From contig NC_015172.1 of NCBI RefSeq assembly GCF_000190635.1, positions 2,790,001 through 2,854,000 on the forward strand: DNA of 64,000 bases, read 5' to 3'. The position numbers and the translations under genes are program-made. Below are positions 34,001-54,269 of the stretch, piece by piece. This stretch comes from Syntrophobotulus glycolicus DSM 8271 (lineage in GTDB: Bacteria > Bacillota > Desulfitobacteriia > Desulfitobacteriales > Syntrophobotulaceae). Numbering within the stretch: position 1 is the stretch's first letter; each line of letters starts with the position of its first letter. Under the pieces are notes generated by a model that saw nothing but the letters and a program-made list of their open reading frames with translations, was not told the DNA's origin and ran no database searches.

Positions 34001-34070
34001 TTTTTACCTCCGCAAAAACAATTGATGAAACTGAACTTCATTTTTTATTTCCAGACAACATTTTTTATTT

Positions 34071-34337
34071 CTAGACAATCAGGCGCTGGTGGGAAATTGC
34101 CCGCTTGCTGTAAACAATCGGGATGTCATTCGCTTTTGCCTGCTGCCGAACATTTCTCATGGTATTATGGTCAATGAAATCGCAAAAAATAATGACCTGG
34201 GCAACATCGATGGGGATGGATTTTTTCCAAAAGGTTTTGGAGCGGCCGCACCAATGAGTGATCTCCTCAAATCCTCTTTCTCTTAATTTGGAAGTGATAT
34301 TTCCCATTCGGTCTGCACCGACAATCAGCACACGCAT
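34071..34337 (-). CDS. DUF2325-family small protein
   Basis: This 88-residue protein starts at ATG 34337 with GGAGG nine nt upstream; the longer frame from 34403 has no ribosome site and begins only a few bases after the operator. It begins RVLIVGADRMGNI, then THWCGRSK and VIIFCDFIDHN, the typical DUF2325 pattern (a Rossmann-like fold with two cysteines). Its function is not established. It forms an operon with cysK under the shared operator, so a sulfur-related or redox role is reasonable. Confidence 0.75.
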   Translation of the reverse strand: MRVLIVGADRMGNITSKLRERGFEEITHWCGRSKTFWKKSIPIDVAQVIIFCDFIDHNTMRNVRQQAKANDIPIVYSKRAISHQRLIV

Positions 34338-34407
34338 TCCTGCCGCCCTCCATTCCTTAGTCATTTTAAAAAGACTTCCTTGGTCTAAAAGAACTTGTTT
34401 CATTTTA

Positions 34408-34470
34408 CATAAAATCTATGTATTTAGTAGTCTTTAAAAGTATGATATTCTTAATTCTCAACTTTGTCAA
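34408..34470 (-). promoter_or_regulatory. Promoter and operator of the DUF2325-cysK operon
   Basis: The minus-strand -35 TTGACA is at 34465-34470 and the -10 TATCAT at 34442-34447, spaced 17 bp. The box ACTAAATACATAGATTTTAT is at 34409-34428. No attenuator follows. Confidence 0.75.
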
Positions 34471-34491
34471 CCTGTTCTGCCGTTAAATTCT

Positions 34492-35790
34492 TTAGTTAAA
34501 TCTGGTTAAGACGATCGAATAAATATCTTCAATCAGTTTAAGACCGCCATGATAACCCACGTAGGATGAATTCATAACCAGCCTCTCAATAACCGGCCAG
34601 GATACATTAAGATAATGAGCGTTTGTTTCTTTGGCAACCTTTTTCTCCCATGAACTTCCCAGGATCAATGGATAACCGAAATAGTCCGTCCCGCGTATTT
34701 CTTCATGAATCTGATAGCCGTCGCTTGAAAAATCAATTTCAGCCCGCAGTCCGTCATTGAGATCCCTGAAGTGGCCGCGCAGTGATTCCCGGTATTGCTC
34801 TGGGGGATCATCCGTTATATATTGTTTCCCGGGGATCAAACCCAAATCATTGACTAAAAATTTGGTCAGGGCCAGGGAGGTTTGGGCATCAGATACTGTG
34901 ACAAATCTCTTTGCCATGACCCGTGTTTCTAAAAAGACATCGGCAAAACGTTCAATGTAATAATAGTACTCTTCCTCATGTTTCATGATGACTTCCTCCA
35001 CCTTTGCCTGATCAATACCGGCAAATTGGCCCAAAGTGCGCAAGAACTTCGTGGTCTCAAATGCCCCAATCGGTAAAGTAGGATAGTGCAGGTAAGGAGT
35101 CCCAAATTTTTCTTCCAGTTTTTTGACGTTATTCAAGCCTACCCAGGGGGAGACAAGCAGGTTGAATTCTGCCGCGGAAAGCTTATCGATGTTTTTTATT
35201 CCTCTTCCATGCCCGTAAATGGTGTTGGGAATCAGTCCCAGCTCAGCAACCAGCTTTTCCAGTTCCCTTAAGTTCCCCAGCCAAAACGGATCATGCAGGG
35301 GGATTCCCGTCCAGATATTTACTAAGCCTTTTTCTGTACGGTCTGCCGGCTTAAGATACTGCTCAATAATCGCATCCAGAACCCACTCATGCCCAAGGTA
35401 GTTATTCCCTTTAAACCCGGGGGTCGAAGCGTAAATCACAGGTTTCTCGGCGTGTTTAAATGAACGCACCACTTCTTCGGCATCGTCCCCAACGATTTCT
35501 GAAGTACAACCCGTCAGCACTACATAAAGATCAGCATCAATCACCTTGAGCGCATTCTCGATGGTTTCGCGCAGCCGCTCTTCCCCGCCAAAAATCACTT
35601 CTTTTTCACTGACATTGGTGCAGGGAAAAATATGGGGGGAAAAATATCCCGAGCTTCCCGTACTTCCCCCCAGCTTTTCCGCACAACCGGGTCCCGAATG
35701 AAGAATAGGCAGTGCTCTGCTGATCCCGTGAACGGTTTGCATTGCCGTCATCGCGCATTTATATCTCGGCTGGTCCAATATCTTGGCCAT
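34492..35790 (-). CDS. Nitrogenase-like beta subunit (NifK-like), K5
   Basis: This 432-residue partner of D5 (35798-37255) starts seven nt after the D5 stop, with AAGGAG upstream. P-cluster-type cysteines are Cys12 (RYKCAMTAM), Cys36 (HSGPGCAEK) and Cys95 (VLTGCTSEIVGDD). Cys57 in PCTNVSEKEVIFGG is shared with K2. It is the last gene of the operon GldA-like, D5, K5. It is paralogous to K2 throughout (LLVSPWVGLxNV, PIGxxETxKFLR), but gene order within the pair is reversed. Confidence 0.85.
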   Translation of the reverse strand: MAKILDQPRYKCAMTAMQTVHGISRALPILHSGPGCAEKLGGSTGSSGYFSPHIFPCTNVSEKEVIFGGEERLRETIENALKVIDADLYVVLTGCTSEIVGDDAEEVVRSFKHAEKPVIYASTPGFKGNNYLGHEWVLDAIIEQYLKPADRTEKGLVNIWTGIPLHDPFWLGNLRELEKLVAELGLIPNTIYGHGRGIKNIDKLSAAEFNLLVSPWVGLNNVKKLEEKFGTPYLHYPTLPIGAFETTKFLRTLGQFAGIDQAKVEEVIMKHEEEYYYYIERFADVFLETRVMAKRFVTVSDAQTSLALTKFLVNDLGLIPGKQYITDDPPEQYRESLRGHFRDLNDGLRAEIDFSSDGYQIHEEIRGTDYFGYPLILGSSWEKKVAKETNAHYLNVSWPVIERLVMNSSYVGYHGGLKLIEDIYSIVLTRFN

Positions 35791-35797
35791 CTCGGTC

Positions 35798-37255
35798 TCA
35801 CTCCTTTAAAAATGTTTGATTGTCCTGCTTATACCACCAATCCGTATAAGGCAGCTTGACTCTGGCGGCCAGATTTTTTTCAAAGCTCCTGTTTTTTATG
35901 GTATCCAGAACGGAATAAGCAAAATTCAAGGTACCTTGATAACCGAAAATCATATATTCATCGGCAACATAAAGGGCCGGAACCCCCTGTTTAATTGCCC
36001 AGACTGTTGTCCCGGGATGACGGGAAAAATAAATATCCGGCCGATAGGTATTCAAGATGTTCAAAACTTCGTAATTCTGCTGGTCGGCAACACTGATTCT
36101 GAAATTGTCCGGAGAATTCTCCCGCAGGTACTCCAGAGACGGAGGAGCCGCTTCATTATCATATTTTTTGTCATAATGCCAGGCTGCTGCCCAGACAACC
36201 TCCATATCCAATTCCTGCAAAACCCTGCTGACTTCAAAGGTATAGCCCGGACCCATGCCAATAACCGCCCGCAGGCCTTTTAATTCCCGTTTCGCTTCCT
36301 CAATTTTCGGGATGTAAAGTTCCCGCTGTTCGGCAAGATAAGCTTCCACCTTATCTTCTTTCTGAATCGTTTTCCCGATTTGCCTGAGCCATGTTTCAAA
36401 GCCGGTGACCCCCATGGGATTGATGGTCCTCACATAAGGAACACCATACCTTTCTTGGAGTCCGTTCCCTAAATAAGTACCCAGAGTTCCGCAAACGCAA
36501 ACAGTTGCCAGGGACTCGGAAAGTCTGGACAGTTCCTCAACGGTAGAATTCTGATATAAAAACAAAGGTTCAACATCAAACCTGGCAAATAAATCGATAA
36601 TTTCCAAACGGGCACTTTCATAAAAGTTTTTAAAATTGATCACATTTCTTTTTTGTTGGGGCGGCTTGACTATGCCGGTTAGCACAGCATGGTCGGAGAT
36701 ATCAAAGCCGGAAGCCCAGATCCTCGATTTAAAGCCTTCACAATGGACTGCGGCAATAGGAACGGGAATCTCTTCTTTCAGCTCTTCCACCACATTGTCC
36801 ACATCTTCACCAATAATACCGGTCACACAGGATGTCCCGATAAAGATTGCTTTGGGATGATAGCGGCGATAGGTTTCCAGTACAATTTCTTTTAGGGTTC
36901 CGGTTGCTCCGAAAACGGTGTCCTGTTCATTCATATCCGTCCCGATGAAAACCGTACTGTTCGTGACCCCTCTCTTCGCTGCCAGCTGGGCATTTTGTAC
37001 CGTCACCCCGGCTGCTGTCGCCGTACAGCCGGAAGGGGCGTGGTTGATGATCGCGATGTCCCTGATCCCTGAAAGCTGAGCCAGGGCGCAGCCGGATAGA
37101 CAGGTACTGGACTGGCTGAAGCATCTTTCTTTATCCCGCAAGGTTCCGCACCTTGACTGGTGCACTAAATCCCGGAGGTCGCCATGATAACCTGTAATGG
37201 AACCCAAACGATTTTCTCTGGTCCCAACAGAACTCTCTTTAAAATTGAACGCCAT
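35798..37255 (-). CDS. Nitrogenase-like alpha subunit (NifD-like), D5
   Basis: This 485-residue protein starts at ATG 37255 behind AGGAGGGG. Cysteines are Cys45 and Cys52/56 (ERCFSQSSTCLSGC), Cys77 (HAPSGC), Cys143 (TSCVTGIIGED) and Cys255 (VCVCGTLGTYLGNGL, cofactor-ligand position). Here the otherwise universal HGP before the second cysteine is HAP. Gln191 and His195 positions are Trp and Phe; no His442 equivalent (LYVADEYMIFGYQG). It is the sister of D2. It follows a glycerol dehydrogenase-like gene by 42 nt, so these are co-transcribed from the leader at 38432-38479. Confidence 0.85.
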   Translation of the reverse strand: MAFNFKESSVGTRENRLGSITGYHGDLRDLVHQSRCGTLRDKERCFSQSSTCLSGCALAQLSGIRDIAIINHAPSGCTATAAGVTVQNAQLAAKRGVTNSTVFIGTDMNEQDTVFGATGTLKEIVLETYRRYHPKAIFIGTSCVTGIIGEDVDNVVEELKEEIPVPIAAVHCEGFKSRIWASGFDISDHAVLTGIVKPPQQKRNVINFKNFYESARLEIIDLFARFDVEPLFLYQNSTVEELSRLSESLATVCVCGTLGTYLGNGLQERYGVPYVRTINPMGVTGFETWLRQIGKTIQKEDKVEAYLAEQRELYIPKIEEAKRELKGLRAVIGMGPGYTFEVSRVLQELDMEVVWAAAWHYDKKYDNEAAPPSLEYLRENSPDNFRISVADQQNYEVLNILNTYRPDIYFSRHPGTTVWAIKQGVPALYVADEYMIFGYQGTLNFAYSVLDTIKNRSFEKNLAARVKLPYTDWWYKQDNQTFLKE

Positions 37256-37297
37256 CTTTTTCCCCTCCTGTAAGTCCATCCGTATCCTCAGGCAAAT

Positions 37298-39984: not shown

Positions 39985-40035
39985 CAAGCTATTTACTGTG
40001 ACAACCTCATTTTTGTTCCTGAATTCGTTTAAGGT

Positions 40036-40092
40036 TTTTGAGTCGAAAAATACGCTTTTTGAGTAGAGTTAGAATTTACTAACTTTTATAAT
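40036..40092 (+). promoter_or_regulatory. AraC-type operator and promoter of the surface protein (site 1)
   Basis: TTTTGAGT occurs at 40036 and again at 40057, 21 bp apart; the second is extended to TTTTGAGTAGAGTTAG. The -10 TATAAT starts at 40087, 30 bp after the second repeat. There is no -35, and the second repeat covers its place. The same geometry recurs at 47137-47193 and 48371-48427. Confidence 0.8.
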
Positions 40093-40156
40093 AGAGCAAA
40101 CATCGCCTGACCATGGGCGCACTATTTTTTAAATGCTAAGGAGGATTTCAAGTAAA

Positions 40157-42577
40157 ATGAGGATTGAACCAACGATCAAGAATTGGCGGATAAGGAGAAA
40201 ATTTTTTAGTTTGCTGCTGATAGCGGCAATTGCTGTCACCTTTCTGCCGCTCCCTTCTCATGCCGCAGCTCCCTTTGCGGGGGGAGACGGGACCGCAGAA
40301 TCTCCCTATCAGATCGCCAGTGCAGAGCAGTTAGATGAAGTTCGCTATCACCTCGACAAGCATTTTATCCTGACTGCCGATATTAGCCTTTCTGACTATG
40401 GCGATTGGGAGCCTATCGGTGCTTTTCAGTCCCTTTCGGATGCCCCGGAAGATGCGGAGGTTCCCCAACCTGCGGTGGCTTTCACCGGCACCTTTGACGG
40501 AAACCATCATACTATTTCAAATATAAACATCAATAAGCCTATGTCTATGGCGGTTGGTCTATTTGGCTGCACGGTCGGTACAGAAGAAAATCCTGGTTCC
40601 ATCTCCAATCTCAACCTAGAGAATGTCAATGCAGCGGGATATTATCTGATTGGGGGAGCAGTCGGCCTTCAGCATCAAAACTTTATGGTGCAGAACGTGA
40701 CTTTAACGGGCACGAATGAGATTCAGGGCTTACAAGGAGTAGGCGGCATTATCGGAACCAGCTTTGACACCGTGAAAAACTGTACGGCTATTGCGGATAT
40801 TGTCGTCACTGGTGATGATGGCGCTTGCGCCGGCGTAGTGGTCGGCGGCACGGACGGAGGCTCTCTCCTCAACTGCACGGCGGCGGGAGGCTCGGTAACG
40901 GCAACAGGAAAGAATTGCTGGGCATTGGGCGGAGTGTGTGGCGCACCTTATGCCGCACCGAAAATCACAACCTGCATGGCCGAGAACGTGACCATTACAG
41001 CTTCCGGTACAAACAACCGCCTGATAGGCGGGTTGGTGGGCTTTACCGGTACCTACGGCGAAGATGCCCCCACCTCTGTAACAAATTGCACGGTTGCGGG
41101 TATCACCATCAATGTATCAGACAGCACGACCTGTGTCGGTGGTCTGGTGGGCGGCAGCACAGCAGGTTCGACTCAGACGATTCCTTCCGTTTTTGCCATT
41201 AAAGACAGTTCCACTGCCGGCGCCATTACTGGCGGAACTGCCTCCGTCGGCAGCATTGCGGGCTATGCTTACCATTCCACCGTGGAAAACTGCACAAGCA
41301 CCATGACTTGGAACAGCGGCATTCTTAACCAAATCGGGGAGAACGTCGCCGTACCTGTAAAATCCCGTGGGGGTAGAAGTAGCGGCGGGAGCTCTTCCTC
41401 CCTGCTGACCCCGCCCGCGCTGGCAACGGACAGCAGCGGTAACACCGCAGGCAGTGCCGTGGATATCACGTTTAACGATGATCAGGCCTGGCGGACAGCC
41501 ATCAGCCGTCTTACGGTTGACGGTAAGGTCCTGACCAACGCACAGTATACAATAACGGCAGGCAGCATCCGTATTATCGCAGGCGTACTGGAAACGCCCG
41601 GGAACCATAAGATAGCGGTCATCTCTTCAGGCTACAGCAATGCTGTTATAGCGCAGACAATGACGGAAGCCAGCATCGCTTCGGTGGTGCGGCTGGCGGG
41701 GAGTAACCGCTTCGAGACAGCTGTTGCGATTGCCAGGGCCGGCTGGACTGACGGCGCCGACAATGTGGTCTTGGTCTATGCCTTTGATTTTCCCGATGCC
41801 CTGGCGGCAGTGCCCTTAGCCAAGAAGCTGAATGCGCCGATTCTTCTTACCTCTAAGACAGAACTTTCAAGTGTAACCTTAGCAGAGATGGAAAGACTGA
41901 ACGCAAAAAAAATAACGCTCATCGGCAGTGCGGGCGTGATTTCTCAAAATGTGGAGGACAGCCTGATTGCCAGATATGGCCGGAATAATATCGTACGCTA
42001 TGGCGGCGCCAACCGCTACGCAACGGCGGCAGCGATTGCGGAAGCCATGGGCCAGACCGGCAAAGCCGTGCTTGTTAACGGAGAAACAGCACATTATCCG
42101 GATGCTCTGGCCATTTCTCCTTATGCCGCTTATCATGGGATACCCATCCTCTTTACAGAAGCGTCAAGACTTCCCGCAGAGACAGCCCGAGCCCTGACAA
42201 CCCAAAATGTCGGTGCTGCCATCATCGTCGGCGGTGAGGGAGCCATTTCGGCGGAGGTCTTCAATCAAATACCGGGGGCCAGTCGTTATGGCGGTGATGA
42301 TCGTTATGGGACAGCCGTGGCAATTATCAAGGGGCTGGCTCATGAATTTAATCAAGTCTATGTCGTAACCGGAGTGAATTTCCCGGATGCCCTGGTGGCA
42401 GGCAATTTGGCGGCACATACCCAGTCACCCCTGATCTTGGTGGATAAGCAAATTCCTGAAGCTGTTCAGACATTCTTCACAACAGCAGGACAGGACATTG
42501 CCAAAATAACGATAATTGGTGGTGAAGAGATTATTCCCGCCTCTCAGATCAGTGATCTCCTTAAAGCTCTAGAGTAA
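40157..42577 (+). CDS. Secreted surface protein with GLUG-like repeats and cell-wall-binding repeats
   Basis: This is an 806-residue exported protein. The signal peptide covers about residues 1-37 and ends SHAAA. Residues ~40-390 are Gly/Asn/Thr-rich repeats of the GLUG type (IGGLVGFTG, VGGLVGGS, NCTA) forming a beta-helix-like stalk. A low-complexity RGGRSSGGSSSS linker follows, then a ~75-residue domain (NDDQAWRTAISRLTVDG) like those in hemoglobin-binding surface proteins (DUF1533). Residues ~520-806 hold three cell-wall-binding 2 repeats (RLAGSNRFETAVAIA, RYGGANRYATAAAIA, RYGGDDRYGTAVAII). I choose ATG 40157, 12 nt after GGAGG. It is under the AraC-type operator, so it is probably induced with the ABC system at 43559-47051, possibly for iron or a chelate. 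Confidence 0.8.
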   Translation: MRIEPTIKNWRIRRKFFSLLLIAAIAVTFLPLPSHAAAPFAGGDGTAESPYQIASAEQLDEVRYHLDKHFILTADISLSDYGDWEPIGAFQSLSDAPEDAEVPQPAVAFTGTFDGNHHTISNININKPMSMAVGLFGCTVGTEENPGSISNLNLENVNAAGYYLIGGAVGLQHQNFMVQNVTLTGTNEIQGLQGVGGIIGTSFDTVKNCTAIADIVVTGDDGACAGVVVGGTDGGSLLNCTAAGGSVTATGKNCWALGGVCGAPYAAPKITTCMAENVTITASGTNNRLIGGLVGFTGTYGEDAPTSVTNCTVAGITINVSDSTTCVGGLVGGSTAGSTQTIPSVFAIKDSSTAGAITGGTASVGSIAGYAYHSTVENCTSTMTWNSGILNQIGENVAVPVKSRGGRSSGGSSSSLLTPPALATDSSGNTAGSAVDITFNDDQAWRTAISRLTVDGKVLTNAQYTITAGSIRIIAGVLETPGNHKIAVISSGYSNAVIAQTMTEASIASVVRLAGSNRFETAVAIARAGWTDGADNVVLVYAFDFPDALAAVPLAKKLNAPILLTSKTELSSVTLAEMERLNAKKITLIGSAGVISQNVEDSLIARYGRNNIVRYGGANRYATAAAIAEAMGQTGKAVLVNGETAHYPDALAISPYAAYHGIPILFTEASRLPAETARALTTQNVGAAIIVGGEGAISAEVFNQIPGASRYGGDDRYGTAVAIIKGLAHEFNQVYVVTGVNFPDALVAGNLAAHTQSPLILVDKQIPEAVQTFFTTAGQDIAKITIIGGEEIIPASQISDLLKALE

Positions 42578-42699
42578 GGGTTCATCTGGTTTTGCTTACA
42601 AGCTGGATTTTTAGCGGGACGAACACTTCTGCGTGTCTAACTTGGAACAGGTTTACCCACTTATGGAGTGGCAGTCGTATTCTGAAGCGGTTAGAAAGA

Positions 42700-42747
42700 G
42701 GCTGTTGCCTGACGGATGATAAAATTCGTTGGCAACAGCCCTTTTCA
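42700..42747 (+). terminator. Terminator after the surface protein
   Basis: A perfect 10-bp stem GGCTGTTGCC/GGCAACAGCC (42700-42740) is followed by CTTTTC. The rest of 42578-42894 holds no gene that I can support. Confidence 0.85.
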
Positions 42748-42894
42748 CCGATAGCAGATTCTCAGAAACTTGATCATTAAGGACTCCCCCACAACCCCGA
42801 CCAGCCGATAAACCCTGATGAAAGAGCCAAACTATGGTAAAATAAAGGCTACAATCAGACACATACAGATAATGAGGTCTGGAAGGAGCAAACC

Positions 42895-43521
42895 ATGAAC
42901 GATTTCATATTAAAAATCTATGAATTATTGACAATATTATTACCTTTTTTCATTGTTTTCGTCGTAATGAACATCATTTCAAGACGCAAAGGTATAGCCG
43001 CGTTAAACAGTTATTTTCTACTGACTTTTGTATTGGCAATTTATCTTTTCGGAACTTTATCTGTTACTGGTGCCGGTACAATTTTCGATCTAAAAATGTA
43101 TGGCATTGAAATAAGATCTGATCAGATTAATCTATTCCCTTTTTCACAGGATATCGATATTATGGCATATTTGCAAAATATTCTGCTGTTTATTCCATTT
43201 AGTTTTCTGCTGGCTTTAATATGGCCTCATTATGCTAAATGGAAATTTGCTGTGTTGTCTGGATGTTTATTTTCCTTATTGATAGAATTAAGTCAACTTC
43301 TTAATAACAGGCAAACCGATATTGATGACTTGATACTGAACATCGTTGGGACGGCCTTAGGTTATTTTCTCTACCAGATTTTTATCTCTGTAACAAAATG
43401 GAATAATGAGCGGTTGGTTTACTATAGATTTGAACCGGTTGTATATGTATGTGCAATGTTTTTAGGACATTTCTTGTTCTATAACGAGTTTGGTTTAGCG
43501 AAAATACTATATGGATTTTAA
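42895..43521 (+). CDS. VanZ-family membrane protein
   Basis: This 208-residue membrane protein has about five hydrophobic segments. The VanZ pattern is visible: INLFPFS, QNILLFIPFSFLLALIWP, LIELSQLLNNRQTDIDDLILNIVGTALGY. VanZ proteins give low-level teicoplanin resistance in some enterococci, but most members have no known role. The start ATG 42895 has GGAAGGAG upstream. It has no shared operator and is convergent with the ABC transporter. Confidence 0.85.
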   Translation: MNDFILKIYELLTILLPFFIVFVVMNIISRRKGIAALNSYFLLTFVLAIYLFGTLSVTGAGTIFDLKMYGIEIRSDQINLFPFSQDIDIMAYLQNILLFIPFSFLLALIWPHYAKWKFAVLSGCLFSLLIELSQLLNNRQTDIDDLILNIVGTALGYFLYQIFISVTKWNNERLVYYRFEPVVYVCAMFLGHFLFYNEFGLAKILYGF

Positions 43522-43558
43522 TCTGTGCCTTTATTCAGGTTGATACTCCTAAATCAGA

Positions 43559-45304
43559 TTAAGAGAGGCTCCAACCAGATGTTTTTTCTCTGATGCTTAC
43601 AAAATCGCGGTATATACCTGCCTGTTCTATTAATTCATTGTGGGTTCCACTTTGGCTGATGCGTCCGTCCGAAATCACTAAAATTTGATTTGCCTCTCTT
43701 ATTGTATTCAGCCGGTGAGCAATGACCAATAATGTTTTTCCTTTGACCAGTTCAGAAATTGCTTCCTGAATATAGCTTTCATTATCCGTGTCTACGCTTG
43801 CCGTCGCTTCATCCAAAATAACAATAGGTGCATCTTTCAAGATGCAGCGGGCAATGGAAATACGCTGTTTTTCACCGCCGGACAGGGTAGCTCCACCTTC
43901 GCCTACCATCGTTTGGAACCCCTCCGGTAAATTCATGATAAAGTCGTAACAGCGGGCCTTTTTTGCCGCCTTAAAAACATCTTCCTCCGTAGCATCCGGC
44001 TTACCCATGCTGATGTTATTATAAATGGTGTCCTGAAACAAATAGACCCGCTGGAATACCATACTGATCTGCTCCATCAGTTCACCAAGAGGAACATCCC
44101 GAATGTCGGTGCCTCGGATAGCCACACTTCCCGATTTCACATCCCAAAGCCTGGCAAGAAGATTCGCAATAGTGGACTTGCCTCCACCAGATGGACCCAC
44201 CAGTGCCAGCATTGAGTTTTCTTTTAAATTAAAGCAGATATCATTTAGCACCTCTTTGTCTTGATAGGCAAAGGTCACATGATTGAAGCACACTTCCGGC
44301 GCATTGGGGGAAACGGCCGGGATATGCTTTTTTCCGGTGGCCGGCAGTTCCTCTTCCTTCAATACAGACTCAATGCGATCCAATGCAGCATCCATCACCG
44401 TCAGACGGGTAGCCTCGCCATAAAGTGCCTTAAGTGGTCCAAACAGGTCAAAAACAAAGAGCAGAACGCCCAGCAAATAAGGCAGAGACAGTACGCCGTT
44501 CTGCTGAAGAGATATAGACAGTCCAAAAATGGAGGCAATTCCGAACGCATAGAGAATGTTTAGCCCTCGCGTCCACGGAGTCATTTTTTTCTCAAATGTA
44601 ATGGATGTATCTCTGGACTTTTTAAAATTATCACTTAACTCCTGCGATTTTTCGCCAATCAGATTGTAACTCTTAATCACTCCGATACCTTCGGTAAAGG
44701 AAAGCACCGCATCGGTCAAATGTTCGCTCTGTTCCTGCCGCTGGGCGGCCTCACCCAAGGATAATTGGTTCATGCGTCCCGCAATCAAGGATGCAAGCAT
44801 GATGATGCCTGTGGCAACCAGTCCCAGCCGCCAATCCAGAACAAACATAAAAACAGTCAAGATTAATGAAGAAAACAGATAACTCATCATGTTTGCAATA
44901 GTACTCATTGATACTTCTTCAATGAATACCATATCCGTACTTAGAACGGAACTGATTTTACCGATATTGCCTGCGGTAAAATAGCCCATAGGAAGTTTAC
45001 GGAGATGTCCGCCTAATGCCATACGCTGATCTGCAAACATCATGTATCCGGCTCCACTTTGCAGACGGTCGCTCAAAAAATGAACCACGGCTTGGAGCAC
45101 GACTACCGCCAAGAGGCCAAGACCAATATACAGGCAGCGTCTCGCATTCAAGGTATTCTCATAAAAGCCAGCCAGCACGATAAATGCAAAAAACAGCGGC
45201 ATTTTTGAAAGAACGGACTCCAAAAACGAGCAGACAGAGGCCGCTCCGATTCTCCCTTTGTATTTGCCGGAAAGTTGTAGAATTCTTTTGAACAGTTTCA
45301 GCAT
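43559..45304 (-). CDS. ABC transporter, fused membrane and ATPase domains (second subunit)
   Basis: This is a 581-residue type-IV ABC half-transporter with a six-segment membrane domain (residues ~20-300) and an ATPase domain with GPSGGGKST, LSGGEKQR and ILDEATAS. The start ATG 45304 follows GGGGGG; the longer frame overlaps the upstream gene and is rejected. It is translated one base after the stop of 45306-47051, so the two form a heterodimer. Under a PchR/YbtA-like AraC regulator such pairs are known as siderophore importers (YbtPQ, IrtAB). That is the favoured reading; peptide or drug export is the alternative. Confidence 0.85.
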   Translation of the reverse strand: MLKLFKRILQLSGKYKGRIGAASVCSFLESVLSKMPLFFAFIVLAGFYENTLNARRCLYIGLGLLAVVVLQAVVHFLSDRLQSGAGYMMFADQRMALGGHLRKLPMGYFTAGNIGKISSVLSTDMVFIEEVSMSTIANMMSYLFSSLILTVFMFVLDWRLGLVATGIIMLASLIAGRMNQLSLGEAAQRQEQSEHLTDAVLSFTEGIGVIKSYNLIGEKSQELSDNFKKSRDTSITFEKKMTPWTRGLNILYAFGIASIFGLSISLQQNGVLSLPYLLGVLLFVFDLFGPLKALYGEATRLTVMDAALDRIESVLKEEELPATGKKHIPAVSPNAPEVCFNHVTFAYQDKEVLNDICFNLKENSMLALVGPSGGGKSTIANLLARLWDVKSGSVAIRGTDIRDVPLGELMEQISMVFQRVYLFQDTIYNNISMGKPDATEEDVFKAAKKARCYDFIMNLPEGFQTMVGEGGATLSGGEKQRISIARCILKDAPIVILDEATASVDTDNESYIQEAISELVKGKTLLVIAHRLNTIREANQILVISDGRISQSGTHNELIEQAGIYRDFVSIREKTSGWSLS

Positions 45305-45305
45305 C

Positions 45306-47051
45306 TTAATTCCCCCCTTTTGCAGTAGCCACTTTCCACTCCGAACTATTTTGGGAAGCGTTCCACAGTTTATGATATTCCTCACAAGAGGACAGCAATT
45401 CATCGTGCTTACCCGCAGCCAGGAGGGAGCCATGTGCCATGACACAGATTTGGTCTGCGTTCATCATGGCAGACAGCTTATGGGCGATAACAAATAGGGT
45501 CTTGCCCTTAACCAGCTCCGCAATAGCCGCCTCCACCTTTTCCTCGTTTTCCGGGTCAATGTAAGCGGTGGCCTCGTCAAGAACCACGATAGGGGCGCTC
45601 TTCAAAATCGCTCTTGCCAGAGAGATACGCTGACGCTGTCCGCCGGAAAGCATTTTACCTGCATCCCCAGCCGCTGAATGGATACCTCGGGGTAATTCTT
45701 CGATATACTCCATACACTGTGCTTTACGGGCAGCTTCTACCACTTCCTCATCGGTGGCATCCAAACGCCCCATCCGAATGTTTTCCAGCAGAGAAGTGTT
45801 AAAAAGATACTGATCCTGCGCCACATAAGAAATCTGGCTGTTCAAAGCATTCAGACTCATTTCACTGACACTCTGTCCGCCAACGGTAATTGTTCCCTGC
45901 TGTGGGTCATAATAGTGGATCAACAGCTTTGCCAACGTACTTTTCCCAGAACCGGACTCGCCCACGAGAGCCGTTTTTTGCCCGGCTTTCGCGGTCAGGC
46001 TGACATCGTGAACGACTGTCTGATCTCCGTAAGCAAAGCTTACACCCTCAAAACAGATTGTATGATCTTTGCCACCGAAACCATCTTCGGTCTGATGGAG
46101 GGGTTCGGCTTCTAACACCTGTTCCAGTGCAGAGATTTTATAATTGAGCTGAGGCATGGCAGGCAGGAATCCAAGGGCTTTGAGCAAGGGAATACCAATG
46201 CTCAACGCCAGACACAGCACTAAAATCAGACTTGGCAAGGTAGAAAAGCCCCTCAGCACGAACCAGGCGCCTAAAGGCAGCGTCAGAATGATGGTACAAG
46301 GCAGCAAACTGTTATAAATCGCCATCCACGGCCAGCAAGCCTTATACCAGTTCAACGTATAGTCACGGTAATTGGTAACATCCTTTCGGAACCGTTCATA
46401 AGACTCGCCATCTTTGTTGAATACTTTGACTACTTCCATCCCGTTGATGTACTCAATAATGGTATTATTCATTTTCTGCCCTGCCTGATAATAAGGCCCC
46501 ATTTGCTTCATGCCAACAGAATACATCATCATCATTGCAACCAAGCTGATGGGCAGGGAGGCCAAAGACAGCAATGCCAGTTTCCAATCAATAAAGAACA
46601 TGGCGATATAGACCGCAAGCGGAACCATTAAATTTGCAATACCCTCCGGCAGCGAATGAGCCATCAGAAGTTCCAGACTGTCTACGTCGTCTACGAACAG
46701 CTTTTTAACGGTACCGATGCCTTTGTCCTGAATGATGCCCAAGGGCAGATTTTCTAACTTTTTCTGTAATGCAATACGCAGGCGCATCAGCGTATTATAG
46801 GCGGTTTTATGGGATAAATCCAATCCCCATCCATAAAGAACCGCCTGCAAAACCAGGCAAACCAGTACGCCAATGACACGTACTGTAATCTCGGCCAGGG
46901 CAACGCTTCCACCGGTGACCAATGGAGCAATAATCTGATAGGCCAGAACAAAGGGAAGGACACCCATCAGGACACTCACCAGGAATATGAGGGTCGCTGC
47001 ATAGATGCCTTTTTTATACGGACCGGCGTATTCAAAAATTTTATTGAACAT
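45306..47051 (-). CDS. ABC transporter, fused membrane and ATPase domains (first subunit)
   Basis: This is a 581-residue half-transporter with membrane segments in residues ~15-300 and an ATPase with GESGSGKST, LSGGQRQR and VLDEATAY. It is the first gene of the two-gene operon driven by the AraC-type promoter at 47137-47193. The membrane domain and D-loop are typical of the heterodimeric siderophore/multidrug group. The last residues (SEWKVATAKGGN) overlap the ribosome site of the partner. A siderophore or metal-chelate import role is inferred from the regulator type. Confidence 0.85.
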   Translation of the reverse strand: MFNKIFEYAGPYKKGIYAATLIFLVSVLMGVLPFVLAYQIIAPLVTGGSVALAEITVRVIGVLVCLVLQAVLYGWGLDLSHKTAYNTLMRLRIALQKKLENLPLGIIQDKGIGTVKKLFVDDVDSLELLMAHSLPEGIANLMVPLAVYIAMFFIDWKLALLSLASLPISLVAMMMMYSVGMKQMGPYYQAGQKMNNTIIEYINGMEVVKVFNKDGESYERFRKDVTNYRDYTLNWYKACWPWMAIYNSLLPCTIILTLPLGAWFVLRGFSTLPSLILVLCLALSIGIPLLKALGFLPAMPQLNYKISALEQVLEAEPLHQTEDGFGGKDHTICFEGVSFAYGDQTVVHDVSLTAKAGQKTALVGESGSGKSTLAKLLIHYYDPQQGTITVGGQSVSEMSLNALNSQISYVAQDQYLFNTSLLENIRMGRLDATDEEVVEAARKAQCMEYIEELPRGIHSAAGDAGKMLSGGQRQRISLARAILKSAPIVVLDEATAYIDPENEEKVEAAIAELVKGKTLFVIAHKLSAMMNADQICVMAHGSLLAAGKHDELLSSCEEYHKLWNASQNSSEWKVATAKGGN

Positions 47052-47136
47052 CTTGTTCCCTCCTCTTGGTTAAACTACTGTTCTGAAAACCGGCGCAATA
47101 TATCCTGTGCGAGGTTTTGGCCGCTATCTGACCTGA

Positions 47137-47193
47137 ATTTTACAGCTTACTGTGCTCTAACTCTACTCAAAAAGAGTATTCCGTTACTCAAAA
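47137..47193 (-). promoter_or_regulatory. AraC-type operator and promoter of the ABC pair (site 2)
   Basis: The minus strand has TTTTGAGT (47186-47193) and TTTTGAGTAGAGTTAG (47157-47172), 21 bp apart, then a -10 TAAAAT (47137-47142) exactly 30 bp from the second repeat. It is the same as sites 1 and 3. Confidence 0.85.
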
Positions 47194-47213
47194 TCCATCA
47201 ATCCTTGACTGAA

Positions 47214-47255
47214 TAAAAAAAGCCGCCGGATCTCCCCGACAGCAGTTCAGCAGCC
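47214..47255 (-). terminator. Terminator of the AraC-family regulator gene
   Basis: The minus-strand stem GCTGCTG/CGGCGGC (47222-47254) is followed by a run of seven T. It separates the regulator from the ABC promoter. Confidence 0.8.
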
Positions 47256-47266
47256 TTGCTCAATTC

Positions 47267-48289
47267 TTATTTGACTGTACTTTTTACATATTCACTGGGA
47301 TTAATCCCGTATTTCTTCTTAAAGGCTTTCGAAAAATGGCTCATATTTCCGTATCCCACCAGGCCGGCTACGCTGCCGATCCGCTCTTCACCGTTTTCAA
47401 AAAGGAAAAGTGCCGTTTCAAGCCGCTTTTCAATCACATAACGATGTACTGTTGTCCCCAGAAACACCTTAAATCCTCTTACTAATTTGGATTCACTCAG
47501 ATAGACCATCCGTGCAAGATTTGCGCAAGAGGGCGGATTAAAGATGTTCTTATCTAAAATTTCCTTTGCTTTTAGGAGGCTTTCCCGATCTGTACGAGAT
47601 AGTTCAATGAAATCCGTTTTCTGACCCCTCTGCATTATCACTTCACTAAAATAAACCGACAGCAGTTCCAGCAACTTTCCCTCAATATACATTTCAAGCA
47701 TGGTATTTTGGTAGGGACAACTCAGTATTTGCTGAAGGATGACCCTGACGGACGGAGTAATCCTGTGTTTTGCAAAATGACCGACTGATTTTTCAATGGC
47801 AACCTCGTCGGAAGCATCCGCATACTCTCGTACAATTTCCCGAAAGCGGAAGATTGGAATTTTAATACCAATAAAGTTAAACTGGCAGTCCTGATGATAA
47901 CAAGTGTGCTCTAATCCATGCCTGTTATTGGAAATAAAAGTTTCACCTTTATTGATTTGCAGTTGTTTTCGTTCCTCCTTGGACTCCCATGTCATGCCCT
48001 CTTCAAGACAAAAACAAAGATCAATATTGGCTGGATTTGTTGTTCCCAGCACATCCATATTATATTTAAAGCACATCCGGAATTCCGAAATGATCATGTT
48101 TTTGCGGGTACTTATCTGCCGGAAACCACCGCAACCAATTTTATCGGGAATAGAGAATTCGTATTTTCGGGCGGCAACTTGTGTAACCTTAGAGAAAGCT
48201 TCACAAATATACCTGCTTGCCGGCAATAGCTCACTATACAGGTTCACTGGACTTTGATCTGATTTTATTTCTTTATTCACTGATTGCAT
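47267..48289 (-). CDS. AraC-family regulator, PchR/YbtA-like
   Basis: This 340-residue DNA-binding regulator has a C-terminal domain with two helix-turn-helix motifs (LARMVYLSESKLVRGFKVFLG and VAGLVGYGNMSHFSKAFKKKYGINPSEY). The N-terminal ~230 residues resemble the ligand domain of siderophore-responsive regulators of the PchR group (INKGETFISNN; HTCYHQDCQFNFIGIKIP). The gene is controlled by the same operator it probably recognises (48371-48427), giving autoregulation. Its two further sites are upstream of the surface protein and the ABC pair. The inducer is unknown; a siderophore or metal chelate is likely. Confidence 0.9.
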   Translation of the reverse strand: MQSVNKEIKSDQSPVNLYSELLPASRYICEAFSKVTQVAARKYEFSIPDKIGCGGFRQISTRKNMIISEFRMCFKYNMDVLGTTNPANIDLCFCLEEGMTWESKEERKQLQINKGETFISNNRHGLEHTCYHQDCQFNFIGIKIPIFRFREIVREYADASDEVAIEKSVGHFAKHRITPSVRVILQQILSCPYQNTMLEMYIEGKLLELLSVYFSEVIMQRGQKTDFIELSRTDRESLLKAKEILDKNIFNPPSCANLARMVYLSESKLVRGFKVFLGTTVHRYVIEKRLETALFLFENGEERIGSVAGLVGYGNMSHFSKAFKKKYGINPSEYVKSTVK

Positions 48290-48370
48290 TGGGTGTCCCT
48301 CCGGCTTTATGTGACAAACTTCCGACTTTCGATTTATCGCAGTAGAATCAGCCCTTTTTATCCTAATTCA

Positions 48371-48427
48371 ATATTAATAGTTAGATAAAACTAACTCTAC
48401 TCAGAAAGCATATTTTACTGCTCAAAA
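48371..48427 (-). promoter_or_regulatory. AraC-type operator and promoter of the regulator itself (site 3)
   Basis: The minus strand has TTTTGAGC (48420-48427) and TTCTGAGTAGAGTTAG (48391-48406), 21 bp apart, then a -10 TAATAT (48371-48376), again 30 bp from the second repeat. Confidence 0.8.
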
Positions 48428-48511
48428 ACAGTATATTTCTTTATCATAAATCTGTCTATCCTGGGGTGTGCTCTCTGCCATTTACCTACTAAATGATATC
48501 TCCGTCTCATG

Positions 48512-49090
48512 TTATTTTTTCAGTAAATTGATCTGACTTTGCAGCCATTGGATAAGCTCTTGTTTATTTTTATTTACAGGAGCAATCTGTTCCCAAATTT
48601 CTTTAAAATACTCATGGAAAGCTTTGACCAGCATGGGTTCCGTTACGGACAGCCGTACTCCCGGCTTTGCTTCTGAGAGTTCCGCTATTTCAAGTAATGC
48701 AGCCTGCCTTTCTTTAACTACGCAATAATAGGCGCAATTAATCTTACCCTCTATCTCCTCATTCCGGGTTACAAAAGCAATATTGTAGTTATTATACGTT
48801 TCAAGAAGAATGATGATATTCTGCAAAAGCTCAATGACATCCTGAGTTTCTAAATCAATTCGCTCAAGTCCTGAATAGCGGTAAAGATAATACCACCGGT
48901 GTTTAATCAGGTCTTTTATTGAATCTGCCGAGCAGATATCATAGTATTGATAAACCTGGATGTTTGATAAAAACGCAGATAATCGTTTCCGGTAAAAGGT
49001 CAGTTCTGTTCTCATCTCATCATTTGAGAGCGCTTTTTTTTTAGGAGTTTGACATATAACTGTTCCGGCAAGGTTAATGGACTGGCACAA
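48512..49090 (-). CDS. C-terminal part of a frameshifted helix-turn-helix regulator
   Basis: This open frame of 192 codons begins upstream without a ribosome site and overlaps the 3' end of 49012-50064 by 79 nt in another frame. The overlap contains a run of nine A on the coding strand (49034-49042). A shift there joins ...YVKLLKKK to ALSNDEMRTELTFYRKRL and gives one protein of about 510 residues. The segment is soluble and helical with no recognised catalytic motif. I therefore treat it as the C-terminal half of the neighbour, not as an independent gene. Confidence 0.6.
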   Translation of the reverse strand: MCQSINLAGTVICQTPKKKALSNDEMRTELTFYRKRLSAFLSNIQVYQYYDICSADSIKDLIKHRWYYLYRYSGLERIDLETQDVIELLQNIIILLETYNNYNIAFVTRNEEIEGKINCAYYCVVKERQAALLEIAELSEAKPGVRLSVTEPMLVKAFHEYFKEIWEQIAPVNKNKQELIQWLQSQINLLKK

Positions 49091-50064
49091 TAATTGTATT
49101 GAAACCGGTTGCCGATATTCTCTTCACTTTTGATTAAACAGTGATTAAAGCTGGGCCTATCCTCAGGCGGATAATAGTGTATGAGGGGTCGGGCATAATT
49201 GGGCAGAAGGGTCTGATAGTAGTTCTGAAAAATTTCAATAGCAACCTTATTTTTTAGATAAAATGCACAGTTGATTTCCGAGCTCGGCTTAGTTGAAAAG
49301 CAGGATAACACTCCGATCTCCGGGACCGTAAAGTTCTCTCTGCCTATAGCTGAGGCATCGTATTGATTAATATAATAGGGGGCAAATTTACCGGTTCTGA
49401 TCAGAGGTTTGGCAAACTTGATCAGTTCGATTGTTCGATCAATATTATGATTTAACCGCAGTAATAATATGATATTCCACCCATGATTTATCGCTTTCAA
49501 TATGGCCTCTCTTAAACCATCAATCAAGTTCTGATTTTCTATGCCCCGATCGTTATGATAAGTGATATAAATTGTATTGTGATTTCCGCACTTTTGGTGT
49601 ATCGCTGTTTCCAGCAAGGAGATAGCGGCGGAAAAAATTTTTTCCTTTCTAAAGATGATTTGATCCTCGTCTGATAAGGCTACTGAGTGGGTAAGCTCAT
49701 TCACATCAAATAAATTCTTCTTATTAATAAGATTTTTTCTTTTGCATTCAATAGAATACCCTTGTGCCTCCAATAACAGCTTGAATATTTTTTCTTTTTG
49801 ATTACTTGCGGACCCATGACTTCCGCATACCCTCGCGAATAGTTCATTCAATCTCTGCGCTTGAATGGAATTTAAGATATTTTTCGCAAAGTAGTCGGCA
49901 ATCGTTTGAATATGTATTGAGTCATATCCCGGAATCCTTTTTCCGTTAACCCAACGGTTAACAAGTGAGCTATCCACATTGATCGCTTTGGATAGCCTGT
50001 TGGCACTTATATCCAAAATAGACAGTAACGAAGTCAAACATTCGCTGAATTTTATATAAGACAA
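49012..50064 (-). CDS. Helix-turn-helix (XRE-like) regulator, N-terminal part, cut by a frameshift
   Basis: This is a 350-codon frame. The N-terminus is a lambda-repressor-like DNA-binding domain (LDISANRLSKAINVDSSLVNRWVNGKRIPG, about residues 17-46). A long region without known motif follows (residues 90-340). The frame ends soon after a nine-A tract at 49034-49042, where the continuation lies in the overlapping frame 48512-49090. The cause is either a real disruption, slippage-based expression of two products, or a sequencing error in the homopolymer. It is divergent from the chemoreceptor gene, with a perfect palindrome at 50141-50166 between them. Confidence 0.7.
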   Translation of the reverse strand: MSYIKFSECLTSLLSILDISANRLSKAINVDSSLVNRWVNGKRIPGYDSIHIQTIADYFAKNILNSIQAQRLNELFARVCGSHGSASNQKEKIFKLLLEAQGYSIECKRKNLINKKNLFDVNELTHSVALSDEDQIIFRKEKIFSAAISLLETAIHQKCGNHNTIYITYHNDRGIENQNLIDGLREAILKAINHGWNIILLLRLNHNIDRTIELIKFAKPLIRTGKFAPYYINQYDASAIGRENFTVPEIGVLSCFSTKPSSEINCAFYLKNKVAIEIFQNYYQTLLPNYARPLIHYYPPEDRPSFNHCLIKSEENIGNRFQYNYCASPLTLPEQLYVKLLKKKRSQMMR

Positions 50065-51304: not shown

Positions 51305-51646
51305 TCATTTTCCGGTTGTCTCCGCTTTAATCAATTTGGGTAAAGCATCCTCAATAAAATCAGGAATCGTTAAGGCCTTTACTCCCTTTGCCTCCAAGAG
51401 CTGTTCGGCGCTTCTGCCGATCCGGCTGACCAGTACATACCTGCAGTCGGCAAGCAGATTCACCGATTTCTCCATGGTATTCTCTCCATGTTCTCCCGAG
51501 TTGCAGGCGGGAGTATTCTGGCGAAGTTCCAGAAAATGATATTCGTCCTTGTCGTCCACTTCAAAAATATAAAACTGACGGCTCCTGCCAAAATGGTCAT
51601 TGATAAATTTCCCGTCCGAGCTTGCTGCAGCAACCTTATAACCCAT
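51305..51646 (-). CDS. NifX/NafY-family cofactor-binding protein (second copy)
   Basis: This 113-residue protein of the dinitrogenase cofactor family has VAAASSDGKFINDHFGRSRQFYIFEVDD (residues ~4-31) and YVLVSRIGRSAEQLLEAKG. It lacks the cysteine-rich tail of the copy at 5871-6272. It follows the NifH-like gene by 120 nt on the same strand, with AGGAGG before ATG 51646, so the two are likely co-transcribed. The presumed role is binding or shuttling of NifB-co-like clusters to the D/K enzymes. Confidence 0.85.
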   Translation of the reverse strand: MGYKVAAASSDGKFINDHFGRSRQFYIFEVDDKDEYHFLELRQNTPACNSGEHGENTMEKSVNLLADCRYVLVSRIGRSAEQLLEAKGVKALTIPDFIEDALPKLIKAETTGK

Positions 51647-51766
51647 AATATTTTACCTCCTTTGACTTTTCCTGAATGAATGAACAAAATTATTTTTTAT
51701 TAATTTATATCATAAATCAAAACAGATAAAATACAATTCTTTTCGCAAGAATCGCCAGGAGGTTTC

Positions 51767-52645
51767 TTAGATATTTCCGACCGCCTCGGTGCGGACTTCC
51801 CCGGTTTCAAGCGCCAGCAGGTAATCGCCCCATTTTGCGGCCCATTCTCTTAATTCACTGATTTCCAAAGGTGTCGGAACCCTGGACTCGGTATGATGAT
51901 CAATCTTTTCGGCAAGGCTTTTGTAGATAGCGGCTTGTTTGGAATCCGGCAGGGCTTCAATTGTTGTTTTTCCCTGCAGCTCGCTCTGGGTAACAGTTAC
52001 GGAACGGGGCACATATTCCACTACCTGGGTGCCTGTTTGTTCAACAAAATCATCAATGATCTCTTTCGCATAAGGGGCATTGATCGAGTTGGCAATTACT
52101 CCGCCCAATAATGCTCCACCGGAGTTGGAATATTTCTTGATCCCTTTCATCAGGTTGTTTGCCGCATAGATGGCCATAAAATCCGCTGAAGATACGGTAA
52201 ACACATGTTCGGCAATCCCTTCACGCACCGGGACCGCAAATCCACCGCAAACGACATCGCCCAGGACATCATAAATGACATAATCCAAATCAAGCTCTTC
52301 AAAAACTTTTTGTTGTTTAAAAAGCTGAACTGCCGTAATGATTCCCCGGCCCGCACAACCAACACCCGGAGCAGGCCCGCCGGCTTCCACACAATAAATC
52401 CCATTAAAGCCTTCAAAGATTACTTCATGAGCTTTGACTGAGCTTTTTTCTCTCAGGGTATCAAGAACTGTCGGGATATATTTTCCTCCCCTGAGAGTAT
52501 TCGTGGAATCGCTTTTGGGATCACAGCCAAACTGCATGACCTTGTATCCTGCTATTGAAAGCGCGGCACTAAGATTAGATGTGGTTGTTGACTTGCCAAT
52601 ACCACCCTTTCCATAAATTGCAATTTGTTTAATTTTCTTTGCCAT
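51767..52645 (-). CDS. NifH-like Fe protein (ATP-dependent reductase component)
   Basis: This 292-residue protein is the only NifH homologue in the window. It has P-loop GKGGIGKST (12-20), the 4Fe-4S ligands Cys97 (GVGCAGRG) and Cys133 (DVVCGGF), and Arg100 beside the cluster cysteine. Its homodimer would hold the cluster and pass electrons with ATP hydrolysis to the nitrogenase-like pairs. With five D/K pairs and one H, it is likely shared. It is preceded by a leader-type hairpin and the two yezD genes, and followed by the NifX-like gene. BchL/ChlL-type and CfbC-type reductases are less likely given the partner genes. Confidence 0.9.
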
Positions 52646-52722
52646 TTCTCAATTCACTCCTAAAAATTTTATTCAACGAATACTACATGCCAAAAACAAG
52701 AGACCAAGCTCCTATCCTTATT

Positions 52723-52757
52723 TTGGCTAAGAACTTAGCCTCCATGTTTATGGTCAG
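52723..52757 (-). ncRNA. Leader-type element upstream of the nifH-like gene
   Basis: The minus strand has GCTGACCAT-AAAC-ATGGAGGCTAAG. The CCAT/ATGG hairpin (52742-52753) is followed by GGCTAAG/CTTAGCC (52725-52740). The second stem is not followed by T-run, so the output may be different from termination. The CCAT/ATGG pair is a further compensatory variant of P1. The promoter is uncertain (a TATAAA lies near 52770). Confidence 0.65.
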
Positions 52758-52877
52758 CCAAGAACGATTTTATAGAATCCTGTTAGAAAAAGAAGACAAT
52801 CGCCTTTAGCTTTCTAATCGAGCATAAACAAGGATCTCTAAGCGATATCATTGTTTGATTTATTCTCCTTCATTATC

Positions 52878-53048
52878 TTACTTTATTCTCATTTTCTCAT
52901 TTTTCTCCAGCTGGACGACTTCGCCATTTTGGATGATCAAAGTAATTGAACCAAATTTAATAGTCTTTAGGAGGGTGACAAGCTTTTCAATATACTCATC
53001 TGAAATAGGATTTTGAGAACTATCACCGCTTTTCTTGTTATCTACCAT
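52878..53048 (-). CDS. YezD-family small protein (DUF2292), second copy
   Basis: This 56-residue protein starts at ATG 53048 behind AGGAGGAGAAGAGG. The C-terminal half reads LLKTIKFGSITLIIQNGEVVQLEKNEK, the typical YezD core (GSxTLIIQDGxxVQxExxEK). YezD proteins are found next to sulfur-uptake and cysteine genes in Firmicutes, but their function is unknown. It is 91 nt downstream of its paralogue and together they precede the nifH-like gene. It is too short for most gene finders. Confidence 0.85.
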   Translation of the reverse strand: MVDNKKSGDSSQNPISDEYIEKLVTLLKTIKFGSITLIIQNGEVVQLEKNEKMRIK

Positions 53049-53139
53049 CCTCTTCTCCTCCTGTTTGCATTAATTTTCTTGGTTGCTTTAACCCCAAGCC
53101 GGTAGATTTTTTCCATGAACTTTTCTTTTCTAAAACGGG

Positions 53140-53304
53140 TTATTTCAGCTTTATCTTTTCGTATTTATTTACCTGAATTAATATTCCGTCTTGAATAATT
53201 AAGTTCAGGGAGCCAAAATGAATTTCTTTGATCATTTTCATAATTCGATAGAGTTCTTTATTCTTTGACAGATCGTTTATTTTGTTATTATCCAGGGTAA
53301 TCAA
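53140..53304 (-). CDS. YezD-family small protein (DUF2292), first copy
   Basis: This 54-residue protein starts at TTG 53304, with GGAGGGG about eight nt upstream. It contains IKEIHFGSLNLIIQDGILIQVNKYEK, the same core as its neighbour. It is the first gene behind the promoter and operator at 53329-53389. The promoter box places these YezD proteins in the sulfur-type regulon. A role in organosulfur uptake or redox is suggested only by location. Confidence 0.8.
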   Translation of the reverse strand: MITLDNNKINDLSKNKELYRIMKMIKEIHFGSLNLIIQDGILIQVNKYEKIKLK

Positions 53305-53328
53305 AATATCCCCTCCTCGAATTATCTA

Positions 53329-53389
53329 TAATATCTATGGGTTTAGTGGTCTTTAGAAAAAGAATATTAGAATTTACCTCTTTTGTCAA
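53329..53389 (-). promoter_or_regulatory. Promoter and operator of the yezD genes
   Basis: The minus-strand -35 TTGACA is at 53384-53389 and the -10 TATTCT at 53361-53366, spaced 17 bp. The box CCACTAAACCCATAGATATT is at about 53330-53349. No attenuator follows. Confidence 0.75.
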
Positions 53390-53438
53390 TATATTAATTT
53401 TTTTAATGAACCGATCAACCTCCCCATGCTGATTCTTA

Positions 53439-54269
53439 CTAAAATGCAGGAACAACGGCAACACCGTATTTATCCTTGAGAAACTTTTTTACATCTTCAG
53501 AATTCAATACAGCAATCAATTTTTTAATTTCAGGACGGTTCTCTTCTCCTGTTCTGACCGCAATGATGTTAGCATACGGAGAATTGGCGTCTTCCCGGAA
53601 CAAGGCAGTGTTGGGATCAATTTTTGCTTCCAACACAAAATTTGTATTGATCACCGCCCCGTCAACATCAGGCAAACTACGGGTAAGCTGTGCCGCATCG
53701 ACTTCGGCGAACTTCAATTTTTTGGGATTATCTACGATATCTTTGGGGGTAGCGGAATAATTGCTGATTCCTTCTTTCAGCTTGATCAGGCCTTTGCTCT
53801 CCAGCAGGACCAAAGCGCGGTATTCATTGGACGGATTATTGGGAATTCCTATTGTCGCTCCATCCTTTAACTGATCGAGAGCAGTAATTTTATTGGAATA
53901 AAAGCCGATCGGCTCAACATGGACCTTGCCCGCGACGGTAAGCGCATATCCTTTTTCTTTGGTGACAGAATCCAGATAAGGCACATGCTGAAAATAGTTG
54001 GCATCGATTTGTTTATCGGCGAGAGCCGGATTTAACTGAGCTTCGTCATCCAGAACGATGATATTGAGATCAATCCCCTGCTCTGCCAATTTAGGCTTGA
54101 CATAGTCCAGGATTTCAGCATGCGGTACCGCTGCTGCCCCGACTTTCAGTACGACAGGTGAAGCGGCGCTTGAAGGCTGGTCAGTCGGACTCTCGGCCTT
54201 ATTGCATCCTGTCAATACTCCAAAAACAAGGCTGATCACCAATAAAAATTTTAAACTCTGTGCTTTCAT
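53439..54269 (-). CDS. metQ: Methionine-type ABC transporter binding lipoprotein
   Basis: This 276-residue lipoprotein has a signal peptide with lipobox LTGC (Cys22). The NlpA/MetQ domain is clear: VGAAAVPHAEILDYVKPKL, DANYFQHVPYLD, GFYSNKI, IPNNPSNEYRALVLLE. It binds methionine or a related D/L-methionine derivative outside the cell. It is the last gene of the operon nifB-metN-metI-metQ, an unusual link that ties methionine-type uptake to the nitrogenase-like cofactor pathway. Confidence 0.9.
   Translation of the reverse strand: MKAQSLKFLLVISLVFGVLTGCNKAESPTDQPSSAASPVVLKVGAAAVPHAEILDYVKPKLAEQGIDLNIIVLDDEAQLNPALADKQIDANYFQHVPYLDSVTKEKGYALTVAGKVHVEPIGFYSNKITALDQLKDGATIGIPNNPSNEYRALVLLESKGLIKLKEGISNYSATPKDIVDNPKKLKFAEVDAAQLTRSLPDVDGAVINTNFVLEAKIDPNTALFREDANSPYANIIAVRTGEENRPEIKKLIAVLNSEDVKKFLKDKYGVAVVPAF

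Follow-up and report, generated by a model that had tools for sequence, protein, structure and literature searches.

In the 64,000-nucleotide stretch of the Syntrophobotulus glycolicus DSM 8271 genome considered here (contig NC_015172.1, positions 2,790,001 to 2,854,000; hereafter the window, whose numbering is used unless stated otherwise), three promoters carry the same arrangement of regulatory elements: that of a gene encoding an AraC-family regulator, that of a pair of ABC half-transporter genes, and that of a gene encoding a cell wall surface protein. We propose, with a probability of about 0.72, that these promoters constitute a small iron-uptake regulon with two inputs, a repressor of the EqbA/DtxR type and an AraC activator of class II. 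An earlier note on this DNA had suggested a shared AraC regulon that includes the surface protein. That outline is kept on account of the promoter geometry, the uniqueness of the operator, the missing −35, the recurrence of the layout elsewhere and an iron box, whereas its view of a single operator and several details of the gene layout had to be revised. The sequence elements, their geometry and uniqueness, the iron-box regulon and the conserved linkage of araC and ABC genes were all observed in the analysis.

Promoter architecture and direct repeats

The pattern common to the three promoters is TTTTGAGY-N13-TTYTGAGTAGAGTTAG. A search of the window located exact full-pattern matches at 40036-40072 (+), 47157-47193 (−) and 48391-48427 (−), in agreement with the positions given in the earlier note, and in all of them the half-sites are spaced by 21 bp. 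The −10 hexamers TATAAT, TAAAAT and TAATAT each begin exactly 30 bp past the start of the second TTYTGAG, as had been noticed before. From the pattern search and the promoter alignment, the AraC-type direct-repeat operator of the surface-protein promoter (GTTTTTGAGTCGAAAAATACGCTTTTTGAGTAG) was placed at 40034..40066 (+), with its −10 TATAAT at 40087..40092 (+); the operator of the ABC pair at 47163..47195 (−), with TAAAAT at 47137..47142 (−); and that of araC, where it would mediate autoregulation, at 48397..48429 (−), with TAATAT at 48371..48376 (−). The second repeat had been described as a single extended element; the GTTAG that makes up the last five bases of this extension in fact belongs, as left arm, to a palindrome of its own, GTTAG-N6-CTAAC, and the whole element consists of two predicted operators, the AraC direct repeats and an iron palindrome of the EqbA/DtxR type.

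The absence of a −35 was borne out by a consensus scan, in which none of the three sites yielded a sigma-70 promoter that includes a −35. The −35 position is occupied instead by the TAGAGT of the operator at a fixed distance from the −10, in keeping with class II activation, for which a proximal half-site that abuts or overlaps a weak −35 is expected. Pairwise identity among the promoters is high from approximately −30 to +30 around GAGTAG and falls to background level elsewhere; the stretch GAGTAGAGTTAG is identical in all three, including the ABC promoter, which lacks the right arm of the palindrome. Since the identity is confined to the operator, recent duplication does not explain it, and it argues for binding sites that have been maintained.

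With up to 3 mismatches, the full operator has no match in the window beyond these three, and it had none in 100 shuffled versions. The genome-wide scan proposed in the earlier note returned, at the same threshold, only the same three sites in the whole 3,406,739-bp genome, with none for the reversed-pattern control and none expected by chance. A relaxed genome search (3 mismatches) added four matches, at or below the control level and none of them in a comparable promoter, which speaks against a larger AraC regulon. In 150 relatives just two matches with one mismatch were obtained, not shown to be at comparable promoters, and no near match was found in the plasmid collection. Rfam gave no RNA family between 39800 and 49500, and the folding of a hairpin in the leader of the surface gene (40104-40119) was not significant.

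Homologues of the ABC pair adjoin an araC gene at several of the compared loci (L011, L049, L050, L132, L135, L136 and L141). In L049 and L050, which belong to another bacterial family, the ABC promoter has the sequence TGAGTC-A-rich-TGAGT at 21 bp; in 38 genomes this pattern has five matches, two of which are these promoters, while the other three, within genes or at the edge of one, have no relation to this system. A matrix built from the operators of the window gave its top score across the whole 12-kb L050 locus to the ABC promoter site (0 of 100 shuffles); the L049 site is not singled out by this matrix alone. The L049 and L050 operators have no GTTAG. The direct repeat of L055, L136 and L011 is a different one, spaced by 21 or 22 bp, and stands beside a GTTAG palindrome or a Fur-like box. 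At most of the other AraC-ABC loci the full-operator matrix gave no convincing site, which suggests that the half-site sequence is regulator-specific. Judging from these loci, the layout is a recurrent one in which the half-sites vary with the regulator. Accordingly, the loci of other Firmicutes (L049, L050, L136, L011) resemble that of S. glycolicus in that araC adjoins the same ABC-pair family and 21/22-bp direct repeats stand beside a Fur-like box or a GTTAG palindrome, and differ from it in that no surface protein was seen at the locus and, for L011 and L136, in the half-sites. The geometry, the lack of further copies in the genome, the missing −35 and the recurrence of TGAGT-N16-TGAGT in AraC-linked ABC promoters of another family make a predicted class II operator of the AraC type, common to all three promoters, well supported.

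The predicted iron-box palindrome

The palindrome is exact in the surface promoter (GTTAGAATTTACTAAC, 40068..40083, +), where it overlaps the −35/−10 spacer, and in the araC promoter (GTTAGTTTTATCTAAC, 48380..48395, −); the ABC promoter has a degenerate version (GTTAGAGCACAGTAAG, 47146..47161, −). It is also a frequent element in the promoters of homologous AraC/ABC loci of other genomes and of paralogous loci of S. glycolicus itself. In the S. glycolicus genome GTTAG-N6-CTAAC occurs 26 times versus 5 for the reversed pattern, and an 18-bp extended palindrome occurs 14 times versus 0 for the control; a strong enrichment of the latter is seen in a second genome of the order as well (G031, 26 versus 1). 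As classed by our inspection of the adjoining genes, 24 of the 26 palindromes are next to genes for FeoA/FeoB, IrtAB/YbtPQ-like ABC pairs, AraC, ECF/Opp, NEAT or CWB2 proteins, and the two exceptions are at genome positions 303735 (ABC ATPase) and 1508421 (peroxiredoxin). All four strong DtxR-family genes of this genome (1512280, 2941610, 1505660 and 1598584) are located within a few kb of a palindrome, in contrast to none of the three Fur-family genes. The DtxR-like repressor EqbA of Streptococcus equi binds in vitro, in a metal-dependent manner, to a palindrome with exactly this GTTAG-N6-CTAAC core, and genes for a YbtPQ-like pair are part of the EqbA locus (PMC3672683). Since the palindromes cluster by iron-type genes, DtxR-family genes but not Fur-family genes are nearby, and EqbA binds the same core, GTTAG-N6-CTAAC is well supported as the predicted site of an iron repressor of the EqbA/DtxR type, and its presence strengthens the reading of the locus as an uptake system. 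We found no publication that describes an iron-box role of this palindrome for Desulfitobacteriaceae-type genomes, although our coverage of the literature is partial and such an absence is unproven.

Two side observations may be added. A GGDEF-EAL protein and a Feo operon have a common iron-box promoter region (L106:4290-6107), a possible link between iron and cyclic-di-GMP; and a DtxR/MarR-like helix-turn-helix fused to a weak NEAT match is encoded beside NEAT genes (genome position 1482376 and L111:9799-10620), possibly a heme-sensing regulator.

The regulator, the transporter and the surface protein

The regulator gene (47267..48289, −) encodes, as indicated by Pfam and a structural model, a cupin sensor domain followed by a DNA-binding domain with two helix-turn-helix motifs (HTH_18, 3.9e-18), as is characteristic of the AraC family. 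In the model, obtained with AlphaFold2 from a shallow alignment of 8 rows (mean pLDDT 78.8, pTM 0.54), residues 42-145 form strands of a cupin-like sensor and residues 146-221 the helices of a linker. Structure comparison of this model matches the DNA-binding domain to AraC-family structures with a Z of about 15, and the sensor to the sensor domains of BgaR, ExsA and AraC with Z of 10-12. The protein had been called PchR-like, but no specific match to PchR or YbtA was obtained: its NCBIfam matches are generic for the AraC domain, and those to RhrA (35.9 bits) and Btr (31.6 bits) span the DNA-binding domain. Full-length relatives, with 30-39% identity, are present in scattered Firmicutes. Upstream of araC there are two overlapping minus-strand open reading frames (48512-50064; 192 and 350 aa) with no Pfam or NCBIfam match.

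The ABC pair is formed by ABC1 (45306..47051, −) and ABC2 (43559..45304, −; ABC_membrane and ABC_tran domains). Among half-transporters ABC1 is nearest to YbtP/YbtQ and IrtA (YbtP 316 bits, YbtQ 287, IrtA 276-282, TM288 235); ABC2 scores highest with Sav1866 (302, followed by YbtQ and MsbA, both 254). A terminator-like hairpin (47222..47243, −) at the boundary between araC and the pair suggests that the pair has its own transcript, which agrees with a separate ABC promoter. In other loci, orthologous and paralogous ABC pairs are found together with importers of the Feo, Fec, Opp and ECF types, likewise under the iron box. In the L045 locus, whose ABC halves are 58-60% identical to those in the window, half of the AraC operator (TTGAGTCAAAAAAATAC, L045:10560-10640) adjoins both a palindrome and a truncated araC gene, perhaps a decaying copy of the switch.

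The surface protein (40157..42577, +) has a signal peptide, GLUG repeats, a Shr-like HID (PF07550; approximately residues 430-510 of an 814-residue reading frame) and three CWB2 domains. More than 20 CWB2 proteins are encoded in the genome and this is the only one whose gene bears the AraC operator, and it is a credible member of the predicted regulon. Two other CWB2 proteins, one of them with 4363 residues, are encoded directly downstream of iron boxes, and the CWB2 region closest to that of the surface protein genome-wide belongs to the 4363-residue NEAT protein (56%). Besides its three CWB2 domains, the latter wall protein (L118:252-13343, genome 1486551-1499642) carries seven NEAT domains and leucine-rich repeats and has a weak Shp-like match; its gene directly follows an iron box. 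The earlier note had put the surface protein 4 kb away, behind a vanZ gene on the opposite strand; the vanZ gene is on the plus strand, like the surface gene. The surface gene and the ABC pair converge, with just 1 kb between the end of the former and the pair, and their promoters are 7 kb apart. Past the surface gene, a strong inverted repeat recognized by eye (GGCTGTTGCC...GGCAACAGCC, followed by CTTTTC; 42700-42750) is a likely terminator before vanZ. The locus is flanked by nitrogenase-like genes (29452-37279 and 51305-54269), which encode three PF00148 proteins, URO-D, a cysteine-synthase-like PALP protein, a NifH-like protein, a protein with a FeMo-Co-binding domain and an NlpA/MetQ lipoprotein; presumably they resemble a cluster of the methylthio-alkane-reductase type more than one for nitrogen fixation.

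A model of dual control and its alternatives

From these elements we infer binding, the direction of regulation, the ligand and the substrate as follows. The iron-loaded repressor would occupy GTTAG-N6-CTAAC in the spacer by the −10 and shut the promoters of araC and of the surface gene. Closure of the ABC promoter, whose palindrome is damaged, would be weak, leaving AraC as its main input. When iron is low, the AraC protein, whose cupin ligand is probably the imported iron complex, would bind both TTTTGAG half-sites, which share a face of the helix, stand in for the missing −35 and recruit RNA polymerase. Its targets would be araC itself, the IrtAB/YbtPQ-like pair and the CWB2-anchored wall protein, which probably aids in the capture of the iron source.

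By analogy, this dual control is best read as the logic of YbtA/PchR plus Fur. In the yersiniabactin island, Fur boxes and YbtA repeats are found in common leaders (PMC8725597), before ybtA and ybtPQXS, and the two systems would share AraC repeats together with an iron-repressor box, an autoregulated regulator and, tentatively, a pair of the YbtPQ type as target. They differ in that the box of S. glycolicus is of the EqbA/DtxR type and not Fur, siderophore synthesis genes are absent, and the third target is a CWB2 wall protein in place of an outer-membrane receptor. The equibactin locus of S. equi (EqbA, EqbKL) has in common with S. glycolicus the GTTAG-N6-CTAAC core and, as predicted for the latter, a metal-dependent DtxR-like repressor and a YbtPQ-like pair; in contrast, its nonribosomal peptide synthetase genes have no counterpart here, and the portion of its description that was consulted mentions no AraC activator. 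Several facts weigh against the proposed regulon: no substrate-binding protein or siderophore gene is near the locus, the promoter of the transporter itself has just a degenerate iron box, the nearest homologues of the ABC pair (55-60% identity, L044-L046) adjoin TetR or a truncated AraC and not this regulator, and PF07550 is common in many surface proteins and does not imply binding of heme or hemoglobin.

It is improbable that the entire 40-bp element is a single site of AraC alone, with an incidental palindrome. The identity of GAGTAGAGTTAG in the three promoters, even where the right arm is lost, would fit such a site, but that arm is exact in two of the three, the genome shows a 5-fold enrichment of the palindrome, located beside iron genes, and the homologous L049/L050 operators do without GTTAG. 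Far less probable still is that the stretches are functionless small-repeat copies or a recent duplication; near-identical 40-bp sequences inside 8 kb might give that impression, yet the genome has three copies in total, each just upstream of a correctly oriented gene, with the −10 spacing preserved and identity that stops at the operator edges.

Two further explanations accept the dual control and concern the substrate. The transporter could export or detoxify a compound such as an antimicrobial peptide or a drug, sensed by AraC, with the surface protein acting in envelope defence. The ABC halves do have the exporter fold, ABC2 is best matched by Sav1866, and AraC-regulated exporters are common; we nevertheless consider this unlikely given the iron boxes on two of the three promoters, the importers that accompany related pairs under the same box, and the proximity of ABC1 to YbtP/IrtA. 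That the substrate is heme, handed on by the HID/CWB2 protein to the ABC pair in the way that Shr supplies SiaABC, is possible but doubtful. The HID of Streptococcus pyogenes Shr binds hemoglobin (PMC8977872), both proteins are HID-bearing surface proteins under iron control (predicted for S. glycolicus), and NEAT and NEAT-CWB2 proteins belong to the same iron-box regulon. Unlike Shr, a receptor with HID and NEAT, the S. glycolicus protein has no NEAT domain, is anchored by CWB2, has GLUG repeats and would be under AraC control; moreover, a NEAT domain or a heme lipoprotein is absent from the locus, the habitat of the bacterium is anoxic sludge devoid of hemoglobin, and PF07550 is not specific for heme. 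Within an iron-uptake regulon both heme and siderophores are candidate substrates, the HID and NEAT proteins pointing toward the former and the Fec/Opp-linked paralogues toward the latter.

Systems of this type are already known; what would be new is the participation of a wall protein. Tentatively, in this monoderm anaerobe the CWB2 wall protein with a Shr-like HID may serve an IrtAB/YbtPQ-like importer as its dedicated partner for capture, activated by the same ligand-sensing AraC protein and repressed by an EqbA/DtxR-type protein through interlocked operators. Such a system would extend the activator-plus-iron-repressor logic of the siderophore islands of pathogens to anaerobic Firmicutes of soil and sludge, with an EqbA/DtxR-type box replacing Fur. 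With its 26 sites in S. glycolicus the palindrome defines a predicted iron regulon, and a link to iron uptake would be made for one member of a set of some 20 CWB2 wall proteins that otherwise lack a name, which would give a large family a testable function.

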